From a virus, in the IMG/VR virus record IMGVR_UViG_3300042470_000924, positions 1 to 27,910 of that record: 27,910 nucleotides of DNA; one strand, 5' to 3'. A program made the translations under genes and the position numbers. Positions 5,366-25,477 of this stretch are shown here, in pieces. Every line of letters starts with the position of its first letter. Positions within the stretch are counted from its first letter, which is position 1. The notes beneath the pieces are model-generated. The model was not told the origin of the DNA and searched no databases. It saw only the letters and a list, made by a program, of their open reading frames with translations.

Positions 5366-5770
5366 CTAAGAAAGGGTGATTGCTGCGCCCGTTAAATCTA
5401 CCGTAAATGTCTCAGCGTTTGCCATCGTAATGCTAGAGCCATAATCCCACCATCCCATCAAAGGATCAGCAGGCGATGTCGGGGTGTCATCGTACAAAAC
5501 CGCATACCGAAAAGATGCTACAGGACCAGAAGCCGTTAAAACCAAATCCGCTAACACCAAGGTATATGTGCCAGATGTTTGAGACGAGCTTGTGGTAGTT
5601 ACGTTCCGACTTGAAAGGTTTGTGTAGCTGATTTGCGTAATGTCCGCTAAAACGCTATTTGTAGCTACAGGGGCCGTGTTGGTTAAGGCAATGACAAATT
5701 GATCCGTGCCCAAATTGGCCACCTCAACCATGTTTTTAGACCAAGCATGAAATTTGTTATAAGCTACCAT
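5366..5770 (-). CDS. beta-rich phage structural protein
   Basis: 134-residue protein. The N-terminal block (KFHAWSKNMVEVANLGTDQF, then VIALTNTAPVA) and a later LADITQISYTN block belong to a widespread unnamed phage protein type found near tail-fibre genes. The rest is Thr/Ser-rich beta strand with a WWDYGSS motif (about residues 107-113). The ATG at 5770 has an AGAGGG site with the same GGTAAC spacing seen before the 5355 start. It probably forms part of a virion appendage; no direct evidence of function. Confidence 0.75.
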   Translation of the reverse strand: MVAYNKFHAWSKNMVEVANLGTDQFVIALTNTAPVATNSVLADITQISYTNLSSRNVTTTSSSQTSGTYTLVLADLVLTASGPVASFRYAVLYDDTPTSPADPLMGWWDYGSSITMANAETFTVDLTGAAITLS

Positions 5771-5788
5771 GTTACCCTCTGTTTTTAA

Positions 5789-6172
5789 TTATTGTTTCCG
5801 AAAAGCACGTCTTACTCTTGGTATAACACCAAAAACAAGAAATACAAGAAAAGAACCTATGGTTAGATTCAAAAGATCCATGTTTTTTATAAAAAAAACA
5901 ATGGAAAAAATAGCACCAACACCCTGAAATATCCAATCAATCAAAGAATCTTTAAAAGAAGAATTTTTAAACATATCAATGCTTTCTTTGATTCCAGCAA
6001 AAACCAAAGCAGGAAGAATTGCAAAATGAACAGGCAATACTTGTATGGCAATGGCGGTGATTATCACACCGATGGTAAAATGCCCCGTTTGATTTGTCGC
6101 CCACCCGTACCAGTCAAGTTTCTGATCGTCTGGTGTTTTCAGGCTTTTCAGGATAACTGATAAAAATGTCAT
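5789..6172 (-). CDS. phage integral membrane protein (about three TM segments)
   Basis: 127-residue protein with a polar N terminus containing LDWYGWATNQTGHF (about residues 19-32). Hydrophobic stretches follow at about 32-60, 81-96 and 101-119, with a strongly basic C terminus (RVRRAFRKQ). The layout (about three spans, charged tail) fits a holin-like protein, yet it sits in the structural operon, away from the plus-strand lysis cassette. Its start overlaps the previous gene's stop by ATGA (6172-6169). A role in superinfection exclusion or DNA entry is equally possible. No family was recognised with certainty. Confidence 0.7.
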   Translation of the reverse strand: MTFLSVILKSLKTPDDQKLDWYGWATNQTGHFTIGVIITAIAIQVLPVHFAILPALVFAGIKESIDMFKNSSFKDSLIDWIFQGVGAIFSIVFFIKNMDLLNLTIGSFLVFLVFGVIPRVRRAFRKQ

Positions 6173-6585
6173 ATTTGCGCCGCCTGTATAAACATGCCAT
6201 CAATCTGTTCACTTGTTAGCGAAAGCAATGACCCGAATGCCGAAACAAGAGGATCGTTTCTTTCCACAGTCGTCAAATTTGCCCAGCGTATCTTAATGGC
6301 CGCATTCTCTGCCGCCGTGCCACTAAGCAAAGCACTAAAGGCCGTGGGGAATATTGTTCTATCCGTGGCCTCTGTCTCCGTTATAAAGCCCATAGCCTGC
6401 AACACAATCAGCATCTGCGTGGCCGTGATGGTGGGAATGGGTGTCGGTGGGGCCACGTAAGGACCGATGGGGGTATTGTCCGCAATCAATCTTTGGTATA
6501 CTCCGTTGCCCACGTCAACGGGAATAAACGTGCCTTGTCCGTCGGTAATGATAGTGTTTTGTGAGTTAATGTAGGTGTAAATCAT
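6169..6585 (-). CDS. phage tail-fibre-associated protein
   Basis: 138-residue protein directly after the tail fibre. The N-terminal segment (TIITDGQGTFIPVDVGNGVYQRLIAD) contains a GTFIPVD-GN--YQ pattern seen in small proteins next to phage fibre genes, some annotated as tail-fibre assembly-like. A Pro-rich linker (about residues 43-52) leads to an Ala-rich helical C terminus. The ATG at 6585 has GGAAAT upstream and lies two bases after the fibre gene's stop. An assembly chaperone or small appendage subunit is the most likely role, by position. Confidence 0.7.
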   Translation of the reverse strand: MIYTYINSQNTIITDGQGTFIPVDVGNGVYQRLIADNTPIGPYVAPPTPIPTITATQMLIVLQAMGFITETEATDRTIFPTAFSALLSGTAAENAAIKIRWANLTTVERNDPLVSAFGSLLSLTSEQIDGMFIQAAQI

Positions 6586-21805: not shown

Positions 21806-21834
21806 TTGACATGCTGCAGAAATTGCAGTAGTCT
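21806..21834 (+). promoter_or_regulatory. early promoter P1 with operator O1
   Basis: TTGACA (21806-21811), a 17-bp spacer and TAGTCT (21829-21834, 3 of 6 to consensus). The spacer contains CTGCAGAAATTGCAG (21814-21828), an imperfect copy of the palindrome found in P2. The first gene lies 50 bases downstream. A regulator bound there would block RNA polymerase. Confidence 0.7.
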
Positions 21835-21884: not shown

Positions 21885-22076
21885 ATGGATTGCTCGATCA
21901 ATTTAAAAATTATTAAAACCCAAAATGTTTTTATACCTGTTTACGTTGTCAAATCGCAAAACAAGTGCCTTTATTCTAAAAGAGAAAAGGTTTCCTTTGT
22001 TTCCAAAAAGGATGCGATTGATTTTGGAAACAAAATCATTAATGAGGCTTACCATTGCGGGTACTTGCCTGTTTAA
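21885..22076 (+). CDS. 63-residue early protein, paralogue of the 23497 gene
   Basis: First gene of the P1 transcript. It aligns without gaps to the 63-residue product at 23497-23688, with 27 identical residues by eye. These include LKI (7-9), VKS (22-24), KRE (32-34), FVS (38-40), II-EA (51-55) and GY-PV at the C terminus. The conserved pattern looks like a small beta-beta-alpha domain. It is basic with no membrane segment. The family is not recognised. It lies directly behind an operator-controlled promoter, so it is probably an early regulator or host-takeover protein. AAAGGATCACCACC precedes the ATG. Confidence 0.75.
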   Translation: MDCSINLKIIKTQNVFIPVYVVKSQNKCLYSKREKVSFVSKKDAIDFGNKIINEAYHCGYLPV

Positions 22077-22975: not shown

Positions 22976-23004
22976 TTGACAGGCTGCAATAATTGCAGTA
23001 TATT
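22976..23004 (+). promoter_or_regulatory. early promoter P2 with perfect operator O2
   Basis: TTGACA (22976-22981), a 17-bp spacer and TATATT (22999-23004, 5 of 6). The spacer holds CTGCAATAATTGCAG (22984-22998), a perfect palindrome with a single central base. The 15 bases upstream (GATGCAATTT then TTTCC) are nearly identical to those upstream of P3 and contain an extra TGCAAT half-site. The best-formed promoter in the window. Confidence 0.82.
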
Positions 23005-23063: not shown

Positions 23064-23444
23064 ATGACAACTTTAAACTACAATGATCTTTCTGCTTTTA
23101 CCAAAGGCTATATCGATGCGATGTTTTTTTCAGCGGATGATTATCTTTCCCCAGAACTGGGATTTAATGATCTGACCGATGAAACTTTGGCCACGATTGT
23201 AGGGGATTGCGCTGGGTTTGAAGTATCAAACAATGATCTTTTAAACCAAGCAGGAACACCTACAGAGAATGGGCACGATTTTTGGGTGGCTCGTAATCGT
23301 GAGCTGACAGAGTTTTGGAGCTGGAATCGTTTTTGCCCAAAAAATGTGGGGGACGCTTTGCTGAGCGCGTCTCGTAAATACGCGGAGCAATCTTTAGCCC
23401 AAGGTGATGATGGCTTTTTATATCTTGAGCAAGGGAGGGCTTGA
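23064..23444 (+). CDS. small acidic early phage protein
   Basis: 126-residue acidic protein. The central block GHDFWVARNRELTEFW (about residues 70-85), followed by GDALLSASRKYAEQSL, matches a pattern I know from unnamed proteins common in phages of many proteobacteria, where DFW--RN is followed by a GD-L helix. No catalytic residues are recognised. It is the first gene behind P2 with an AAAGGAAACC site. Acidic composition could fit DNA mimicry or inhibitor roles, but this is speculative. Confidence 0.8.
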   Translation: MTTLNYNDLSAFTKGYIDAMFFSADDYLSPELGFNDLTDETLATIVGDCAGFEVSNNDLLNQAGTPTENGHDFWVARNRELTEFWSWNRFCPKNVGDALLSASRKYAEQSLAQGDDGFLYLEQGRA

Positions 23445-23496: not shown

Positions 23497-23688
23497 ATGA
23501 ACCCCAAAATCATCCTAAAAATCACCAGAGGCAACGGCGGATACGTGCTGGGATACCTTGTCAAATCAAACGGCAAAATCCTGTTCACAAAACGTGAATC
23601 GTCGCAATTTGTTAGCAGACAGGCCGCCCAATACTACGGGCAGTGCATCATCAAAGAAGCAAACCAACTGGGATACTTCCCCGTTTAA
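23497..23688 (+). CDS. 63-residue early protein, paralogue of the 21885 gene
   Basis: Same length as, and about 43% identical by eye to, the product at 21885-22076, with conserved LKI, VKS, KRE, FVS, II-EA and GY-PV. It is basic and has no membrane segment. Its codons are G+C-richer than those of its paralogue, so the two copies either diverged long ago or arrived separately. It is the second gene behind P2, with an AAAGGAAACCAAACC leader, and ends just before P3. Function unknown. Confidence 0.75.
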   Translation: MNPKIILKITRGNGGYVLGYLVKSNGKILFTKRESSQFVSRQAAQYYGQCIIKEANQLGYFPV

Positions 23689-23705: not shown

Positions 23706-23734
23706 TTGACAGACTGCAAGTATTGCCGTATTGT
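23706..23734 (+). promoter_or_regulatory. early promoter P3 with degenerate operator O3
   Basis: TTGACA (23706-23711), a 17-bp spacer and TATTGT (23729-23734, 4 of 6). The spacer contains CTGCAAGTATTGCCG (23714-23728), which keeps most of the P2 palindrome. Upstream GATGCAATTTCTTCC (23691-23705) differs from the P2 flank at one base, so P2 and P3 look like duplicates. Confidence 0.75.
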
Positions 23735-23764: not shown

Positions 23765-24154
23765 ATGACCAACATCGAAAACATAGAAGACAACATCGAA
23801 TCCCTGGAAAACAGCTTGGAAAAGGCAAAAGCCGAGCTAGAATTTTCTAAATTCCTTTCGTGCTTTGAAGAGTTTATCCCAGACCCAAAAGGATCAACCG
23901 AATACAATTATTACAAATACCAAGCCCATAAAGACACACACCCAAACCGAATTGTTCAGTTTGCCTTAAAAGGCCGTCAATTTTTCATATCTGAACGTAT
24001 TTTACGTAGTTTGCGTTTCACATGGCATGATAAAACCCGCACTATCACAATCCCTATTGATAAAAAAACAAACGAATTTCTTAAAGATTTAAAGGGTGTC
24101 TTAGAAAAACATAAGGATACTTTGGGCCCTATCACAAATCATTCACCAGAATAA
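23765..24154 (+). CDS. unknown early protein
   Basis: 129-residue protein; the ATG at 23765 is used because of the AAAGGAAACCAACC leader. The N-terminal 30 residues form an acidic helix (NIEDNIESLENSLEKAKAEL), probably coiled coil. The remainder contains KDTHPNRIVQFALKGRQFFI (about 60-79) and a basic-aromatic block (RSLRFTWHDKTRTITIPI). No recognised domain. It is the first gene of the P3 transcript, which also contains the HTH-pentapeptide gene. Confidence 0.72.
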   Translation: MTNIENIEDNIESLENSLEKAKAELEFSKFLSCFEEFIPDPKGSTEYNYYKYQAHKDTHPNRIVQFALKGRQFFISERILRSLRFTWHDKTRTITIPIDKKTNEFLKDLKGVLEKHKDTLGPITNHSPE

Positions 24155-24165
24155 GGAAACCAATC

Positions 24166-24603
24166 ATGACCGACGAAAACCCCTTAAAAACCCATTGCCT
24201 TGACGCACTAGAGGCACAACTTAATCGCAATCTTTTTGAAACAGAGCATGAAACCCTAGACGTGATCTGCAATCTTTTGCCGCTGTATTATCACAGCCGC
24301 ACGGGGGAACCGCTTTATCCCAAGGTCAATGTTGCTCCGTCCCTTAGAAAGCTCGCTTTAACATGGACTTTGCCTAGTATTGCTTACAATACATTTTCAA
24401 TAAATTTTGGTGACGAAACCATCACAAACTATGTCATCAAAACACCTTATGAAAACAAAGAAGTGCATCAAAAATTCTATCCAGACCTAGACAAAAGAAA
24501 GGAAATGGAGCCAGCTTTTTTGTCGGGCCTATATAAAGCCTACACCGATTTTTTTCTCGATCCCGACTATGAATCAAAACCCCAAAGGAACCACCACAAA
24601 TGA
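24166..24603 (+). CDS. unknown early protein
   Basis: 145-residue protein with AAGGAAACCAATC before the ATG. The N-terminal helix (LKTHCLDALEAQLNRNLFET) is followed by LLPLYYHSRTG and a beta section (LALTWTLPSIAYNTFSINFG, DETITNYVIKTP). The C-terminal part is acidic-helical. No motif was recognised. Its stop overlaps the start of the HTH-pentapeptide gene (ATGA 24600-24603), so the two proteins are probably made in linked amounts. Confidence 0.72.
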   Translation: MTDENPLKTHCLDALEAQLNRNLFETEHETLDVICNLLPLYYHSRTGEPLYPKVNVAPSLRKLALTWTLPSIAYNTFSINFGDETITNYVIKTPYENKEVHQKFYPDLDKRKEMEPAFLSGLYKAYTDFFLDPDYESKPQRNHHK

Positions 24604-25220
24604 CACCCGAACATTTTAAACAAGCAAGGCTACACTTAGGTGTCAGCCAAACAAGACTATGCGCCCTTGTGGGTAAATGCGTGCGCACGATCCGATCCTA
24701 TGAATCCGGCGAATACCCCATCCCCAAATCCATGGAGTTACTCATCAAGCATCTTGTTACACAAAAGGATCAACATCCTTCAGAAAAGGTTTATTTCACA
24801 GGATGCGAATTGGCCACGGCCTATTACCAAGGCCGGAGAGATTTTAGAGGCATTATCCTTACGGAATCAGGCTTTTCAGGAAATGAAAAAACAGACTTTT
24901 CGTATGCCGACTTTTCAGGTTCTGATTTTAGCGGGCATCGACTTAAAGTTAGCTTTCACAAGTCAAAACTCACCAACTGCAATTTTAATAAAGCCAACCT
25001 TTCTGGCGTATATGCTGGAGGCGCAGATTTTACAGGATCAAATTTCACGGATTGCGATCTTTCAGACAGTTACTTAGATGAAACTATTTTTAATCACTGC
25101 AACTTTACAAATTCCAACTTTTATGGTGCCCAGTGGTTTAAAAAAGCATCGTTTAAAGGTGCCGTTTTTAGCAATACTTTGTTTCCCGATAAAACCCGTA
25201 GGACTGGCAAAGGAGTATAA
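24600..25220 (+). CDS. fusion of XRE-type helix-turn-helix and pentapeptide-repeat domain
   Basis: 206-residue protein. Residues about 4-52 are a Cro/C1-type helix-turn-helix (FKQARLHLGVSQTRLCALVG, then RTIRSYESGEYPIPKSMELL), with the VSQ turn at 15-17 and recognition helix about 26-34. After a linker, residues about 78-195 are some 20 pentapeptide repeats. Central Phe or Leu occurs every five residues (for example 124, 129, 134, 144, 149, 154, 164, 169, 174), with small residues two before (ADFSG, SDFSG, ANLSG, ADFTG, SNFTD). Such repeats form a right-handed four-sided helix; some family members (Qnr, MfpA) imitate DNA and bind gyrase. A DNA-binding head plus possible DNA-mimic tail suggests a regulator. 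No target is shown. Confidence 0.85.
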   Translation: MTPEHFKQARLHLGVSQTRLCALVGKCVRTIRSYESGEYPIPKSMELLIKHLVTQKDQHPSEKVYFTGCELATAYYQGRRDFRGIILTESGFSGNEKTDFSYADFSGSDFSGHRLKVSFHKSKLTNCNFNKANLSGVYAGGADFTGSNFTDCDLSDSYLDETIFNHCNFTNSNFYGAQWFKKASFKGAVFSNTLFPDKTRRTGKGV

Positions 25221-25222
25221 CC

Positions 25223-25477
25223 ATGATCCAAAATAACATTCTCACTTTTTCAATGATTGACAATCTCATCAATCAAATCTTTGGACAAACCGATGACCGC
25301 GAAAAACTGCAAGCCTTCGCCGCTCGCATTCTACTAGAGCAACAGAAACTCAATAGCCCCTGCCTAGGCAACAAATGGGGTAAAGAACACGCAGAAACGT
25401 CTTACGTCTCGCCAGAATACAACCCCTATAGTCCTTTTAAATTCCCCATTATGAACCACCAAATTAAAGGAGCATAA
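25223..25477 (+). CDS. small unknown early protein
   Basis: 84-residue protein. A helical N terminus (SMIDNLINQIFGQTDDREKL) is followed by QAFAARILLEQQKLNS and an aromatic-Pro tail (YVSPEYNPYSPFKFPIMNHQ). The AAAGGAGTATAACC site lies across the end of the HTH-pentapeptide gene, two bases away, so the genes are coupled. Not recognised. Confidence 0.68.
   Translation: MIQNNILTFSMIDNLINQIFGQTDDREKLQAFAARILLEQQKLNSPCLGNKWGKEHAETSYVSPEYNPYSPFKFPIMNHQIKGA

Follow-up and report, generated by a model that had tools for sequence, protein, structure and literature searches.

Phage proteins in which a helix-turn-helix (HTH) domain and an effector are united in one chain have a precedent in AcrIIA15, and the authors of its structure speculate that fused repressor-inhibitors arose by accidental fusion of adjacent genes (PMC10901769). 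Such HTH-plus-inhibitor proteins are the closest working analogues of the fusion described here; like it, AcrIIA15 and AcrIIA1 carry an N-terminal HTH and a second domain in a small phage protein. Aca repressors are small HTH dimers that act on palindromes within core promoters. Among pentapeptide-repeat proteins, HetL binds HetR and shields this transcription factor from its inhibitor (PMC7476756), a case of a solenoid cooperating with a DNA-binding regulator, but as two separate cyanobacterial proteins. Gyrase inhibitors made by phages exist as well (PMC10886550), and a C-terminal dimer helix is a trait of the gyrase-binding pentapeptide group. Caulobacter phage RW gp016 and Rheinheimera phage Barba21S gp043 possess pentapeptide repeats of similar length and of unknown function; unlike the fusion, neither shows an HTH at the start of its translated sequence. 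No HTH-pentapeptide fusion of this kind was encountered in the open-licence papers searched for pentapeptide repeats with HTH, XRE or phage regulators.

The stretch analysed, referred to as the window, is a 27,910-base IMG/VR record. Its fusion gene (24600..25220, + strand) encodes 206 residues, composed of an HTH_3 head (residues 1-58, 24600..24773) and a pentapeptide tail (residues 59-206, 24774..25217) of about 23-26 steps. The original prediction of a Cro-type HTH of about 50 residues joined to about 20 repeats in a single protein was thus borne out with exact gene boundaries and an HTH of 58 residues. In Pfam, the HTH_3 match of the window protein (residues 7-40, E 5e-4) lies just below the cut-off with 20.4 against 23 bits, and the tail-less homologue in the related contig L081 lies above it with 23.8 bits. 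PF00805 is matched by the C-terminal half with E 4e-21 and 74.7 bits (cut-off 20.2). Pairs of F, L or W at a distance of five residues occur 19 times, compared to 4.3 on average in shuffled sequences and never more than 12 in 100,000 shuffles, and the stretch from F66 to F195 can be written as 26 quasi-pentapeptide steps. An AlphaFold2 model based on an alignment of 39 diverse rows (mean pLDDT 83.6) gives the predicted four-helix HTH and beta-solenoid. Its helices cover residues 3-12, 17-24, 28-36, 43-58 and 68-76, the last being a capping helix, followed by the solenoid over about 80-194 and a basic, disordered C-terminal end. At the level of sequence, the domain composition can be regarded as established.

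The fusion is no assembly accident, because the frame is intact in six copies, five of them from other metagenomes: four are complete (window, L002, L003, L004) and two are cut by the contig end (L005, L006). An artefact of assembly is ruled out by this recurrence. The architecture is nevertheless likely to be rare. The domain search found it in none of 80 viral pentapeptide proteins, and no HTH family was among the 25 families listed for 77 bacterial ones, with three single-member families outside this listing; both samples were chosen by similarity to canonical repeats and are limited, so that absence elsewhere does not follow. Pfam further recognises a large terminase subunit (Terminase_3) and a P22-like portal in the window, and these two point only to relatives of P22-portal podoviruses with mixed hosts. 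A host search by full alignment revealed no relative among 84,980 genomes.

The head is the counterpart of a stand-alone protein of 61-63 residues found in related phages. Its best PDB match is Aca10 (7xi5) with E 0.008-0.01. This match is weak, yet it agrees with the operator layout described below, because Aca palindromes fall within core promoters. In the pairwise alignment, Q22 and R34 of Aca10 correspond to Q17 and R29 of the head, while Q37 and R44 are replaced by R32 and Y39. Similar to Aca10, Aca3 and the small HTH_3 Acas, the head is a four-helix HTH of about 60-70 residues. Against NCBIfam it scored below every cut-off. An MqsA-type antitoxin (TIGR03830) was considered and rejected, with 30.9 bits against a cut-off of 61.8 and a match restricted to the C-terminal HTH part of the family model (positions 66-124 of 127).

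Within this phage group the HTH gene is a constant element. It is present in all ten searched contigs of 30-40 kb, the size of the long relatives, and short contigs that lack it stop near or before its place. The dN values of 0.02-0.07 for the head establish strong purifying selection. The recognition helix (residues 28-36, 24681-24707, from the model) is nearly invariant among relatives. Among 44 mostly non-structural ORFs of the relative G013, neither an integrase nor a CI repressor was seen.

Three promoters with a 17-nt spacer precede the genes of this region on the + strand, each with a palindrome in its spacer. P1 (21806..21834, TTGACA and TAGTCT) is a promoter-like site absent from the list of a sigma-70 scan and contains O1 (CTGCAGAAATTGCAG, 21814..21828). 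P2 (22976..23004, TTGACA and TATATT) contains O2 (CTGCAATAATTGCAG, 22984..22998), the sole exact site of the three. P3 (23706..23734, TTGACA and TATTGT), presumed to be the HTH operon's own promoter, contains O3 (CTGCAAGTATTGCCG, 23714..23728). Operator matches with up to three mismatches number 10 with both strands counted, compared to 1.17 expected.

The comparison set comprises about 21 related viral contigs found through the HTH. Every relative, tail present or not, carries the palindrome CTGCAAnnnTTGCAG within the -35/-10 spacer of 2-4 promoters, so that layout and conservation of the operators are established across 22 of 22 loci, the window and tail-less ones included; their spacing is equal in fused and tail-less phages. 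Over 33 distinct sites, CTGCA and TTGC form nearly invariant half-sites, and variation is found at the central position 7 and in the last two bases. The P3-type sites beside the HTH gene have an imperfect right half (TTGCCG) in 12 of 15 distinct cases. Scanning IMG/VR for the full operator-promoter pattern returned this phage group, shorter contigs with the same promoters, and G002, an apparently unrelated virus judging from its translated genes, which was set aside. Inverted repeats in the promoter of an early accessory operon are common to AcrIIA15, AcrIIA1, AcrIF24 and the fusion, and a palindrome inside the core promoter of the own operon is likewise shared with Aca10 and Aca3. In comparison to the Acas, the operators of the head stand at several separate promoters, no known acr gene was recognised beside it, and the published descriptions of Aca proteins that were examined contain no pentapeptide tail.

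A link between protein and operator is plausible, and the tail is unnecessary for it, since the operators occupy promoter spacers also where the HTH has no tail. The proposal that the fusion is the autoregulator of O1-O3 gains strong circumstantial support for the HTH alone, whereas its extension to the tail is not needed. With moderate confidence, we infer that the HTH protein binds DNA and represses early accessory promoters including its own. Alternatively, a host repressor or some other protein of the phage would occupy the palindromes, leaving the HTH protein with a different role. Small phage HTH genes are common, and the barely varying recognition helix precludes a covariation test between helix and operator, which leaves room for such a binder. 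Nevertheless, we consider it unlikely: gene and operators are constantly linked, the imperfect site usually lies closest to the HTH gene, and the HTH is the sole Pfam-recognised transcription-factor-type protein among the 44 ORFs of G013.

At the junction behind the head, the relatives exist in three states. About 15 loci are tail-less and encode the HTH protein alone, six contigs (the fused copies listed above) carry the pentapeptide tail, and L026 has a different in-frame extension of about 70 residues at the same place. In a DNA alignment, the tail stands out as a clean insertion that separates the HTH from the gene behind it. Where the tail is missing, the final codons of the HTH gene (AAAAGGACCAATCCAATG) contain a likely ribosome-binding site (AAAAGGA) together with the ATG of the following gene. 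This following gene differs in L015, L019 and L026, so that the P3 promoter and the HTH gene are the constant pieces of the locus. The presence or absence of a tail between close relatives also distinguishes the fusion from AcrIIA15, to which, in turn, Cas inhibition belongs.

On a tree of the upstream gene and the HTH, from which L005, L017 and L019 were left out owing to truncated or missing upstream genes, the four complete fusions occupy four places, and a single clade of fused genes is rejected (AU p 1.7e-7). Between fused genes, dS spans 0.31-0.77 for the HTH, 0.38-0.53 for the upstream gene and only 0.04-0.15 for the tail. Tail-less heads show a similar median dS of 0.41; because they diverge about as much as the fused ones, the heads must be old and the tails recent. 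The absence of a fused clade and the far younger age of the tails together indicate that the tail spreads as a module. An old fusion with later losses is disfavoured by the same two observations, the youth of the tails and the scattered fused state.

This mobility bears on the question whether the tail matters at all. It might be a near-neutral passenger of recombination, with only the repressor being of consequence, since most relatives live without it and genes come and go at the junction. Against this, at least four diverged heads have retained an intact copy of the same tail. Core positions of the tail show conservative changes, and an excess of synonymous substitutions was obtained with p values of 0.004, 0.06 and 0.12 for three pairs, the first of which speaks against a passenger; taken over the three pairs, constraint on the tail has only moderate significance and is less well supported than that on the head. 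Taken together, we regard this explanation as quite improbable. GC3 of the tail is 0.35, compared to 0.43-0.48 in most neighbours examined (one has 0.38), which is a weak hint at foreign origin.

Structural comparison of the tail revealed designed beta1 rods (Z 22), NP275-NP276 (Z 20) and HetL (Z 18.1) as good matches, while MfpA (Z about 15) and QnrB1 (Z about 14-15) ranked lower. The residues 78-192 of the solenoid have a pI of 7.0 and a net charge of -0.4. Each face exposes 1-3 K/R and 3-4 D/E, none being strongly acidic, and the whole tail has a pI of 8.3. Scores of Qnr and MfpA models on the tail reach 19-31 bits in comparison to cut-offs of 240-500 (Qnr 28.6 against 240, MfpA 26.9 against 360). 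A C-terminal dimer helix was not seen in the monomer model, where residues 199-206 are disordered.

These properties do not agree with two earlier suggestions. A DNA-like tail had been proposed; with a neutral solenoid that has no strongly acidic face, DNA mimicry is unsupported, and the tail differs in this respect from the C-terminal domain of AcrIIA15, which is an acidic mimic of double-stranded DNA and blocks Cas9. The second suggestion was a gyrase-directed factor; in this reading, the head would bring to the operators a tail that resembles MfpA or Qnr and acts on gyrase or topoisomerase. Phage-made gyrase inhibitors provide a precedent (PMC10886550), and the tail does share the right-handed pentapeptide solenoid fold of MfpA, QnrB1 and AlbG. 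However, generic and designed solenoids as well as cyanobacterial rods match better (Z 18-22 against 14-15). In contrast to MfpA, QnrB1 and AlbG, the tail is neutral, far under the family cut-offs, fused to an HTH and modelled with no C-terminal dimer helix. Charge and family scores thus leave the gyrase reading unsupported, and we consider it very improbable. For a further suggestion, an antirepressor, the evidence speaks neither for nor against.

The tail contains no methionine and should therefore be made mainly or only in fused form. The sole start-like codon in frame near the beginning of the module, a TTG at codon 71 (24810..24812, + strand) with AGGA a few bases upstream, could serve as a candidate internal start. 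Production as a fusion would also suit the main rival explanation, according to which the tail acts on the head by bulk, stability, contacts between dimers or as a landing place for an inducer, has no separate host target, and makes the fused repressor stronger or able to be switched off. In the model the tail joins directly after helix 4 by a short linker and the capping helix, and HetL with HetR is a loose precedent (PMC7476756), HetL being among the better fold matches. Yet many pentapeptide proteins match equally well, so that HetL is not singled out, and neither the operators nor their spacing differ between fused and tail-less phages. We judge such tuning of the head to be rather doubtful. 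Much of the same evidence would be compatible with a tail that tunes the head or with a near-neutral passenger.

The P3 operon begins with a gene for 129 residues (23765..24154, + strand) that has no Pfam family over the cut-off and is replaced or absent in some relatives. Directly upstream of the fusion, a gene for 145 residues of no known family (24166..24603, + strand) overlaps the HTH start by ATGA; it is absent in L017 and L019. Downstream follows a gene for 84 residues (25223..25477, + strand); in most tail-less relatives it starts before the HTH gene has ended. Searches of the window's operon against libraries that contain few anti-CRISPR or defence genes recognised no known member of either kind.

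In five relatives (L007, L018, L019, L023, L026), an ArdC-like anti-restriction gene lies behind an operator promoter. In L007 it is located at 5531-6370 (- strand; ArdcN E 3e-8) and follows a divergent promoter containing the same operator, second in line after a clamp-like gene. Since such a gene stands behind the operator in several members, unknown genes that this operator also precedes are candidates for counter-defence.

Further products were observed in these regions. Two paralogous proteins of 63 residues with 43% identity are encoded at 21885-22076 and 23497-23688 of the window, the first behind P1 and the second, which is kept in most relatives, behind P2 and right before P3. A P2-operon product of 126 residues (23064-23444) matches PHROG 1915, of unknown function, with E 2e-10 and has no close copy among the relatives examined. 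The operator-controlled region of L007 (6361-7110, - strand), L014, L016 and L080 encodes a protein of 232-250 residues that weakly resembles RusA-like resolvases and polymerase processivity factors. Finally, a second pentapeptide protein of 127 residues was found in the structural gene block of G013 (L082:11326-11706, - strand; PF00805 1.6e-9) and at the matching place in L084 (G009); the window lacks it there. The repeat stretch of this protein, MDFSGTDFSGYD, is similar to the repeats of the fused tail.

As the overall explanation we propose an Aca-like autorepressor of early operons that is fused in some phages to a pentapeptide effector, a proposal we hold to be evenly poised between right and wrong. 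The head would be the phage's own early-operon repressor, acting as a dimer held by helix 4. This dimer would bind the CTGCAAnnnTTGCAG palindromes in the -35/-10 spacers of several early promoters, among them the imperfect O3 before its own operon. It would shut down these strong host-polymerase promoters after a first burst. The regulon may be a shifting set of small accessory genes, to which the ArdC-like gene of the five relatives would belong. The solenoid module presumably entered the cassette slot behind the repressor gene in frame and devoid of its own ATG, and may now move among related phages by recombination.

The tail probably provides an additional function directed at the host. 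The most likely gain would be a bifunctional protein whose rod binds a host target, be it a defence protein or some other factor, with the head limiting the dose of the fusion itself, as in AcrIIA1, AcrIIA15 and AcrIF24. More specifically, and only tentatively, the solenoid may be an effector of counter-defence or host takeover, physically linked to the very repressor that controls its operon and exchanged between phages as a tail of an unchanging DNA-binding head.

For this phage group, the operator motif marks the early accessory operons, and the occurrence of the same head in tail-less, pentapeptide-tailed or otherwise extended form in close phages makes the gain from fusion directly comparable. 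Pentapeptide proteins are common in phages, mostly with no known function, and the locus supplies a functional context for them. HTH-plus-effector proteins of phages are known, and by analogy the new element would be the pentapeptide solenoid as the fused part; if the proposal is true, the fusion would add a new kind of effector to these proteins.
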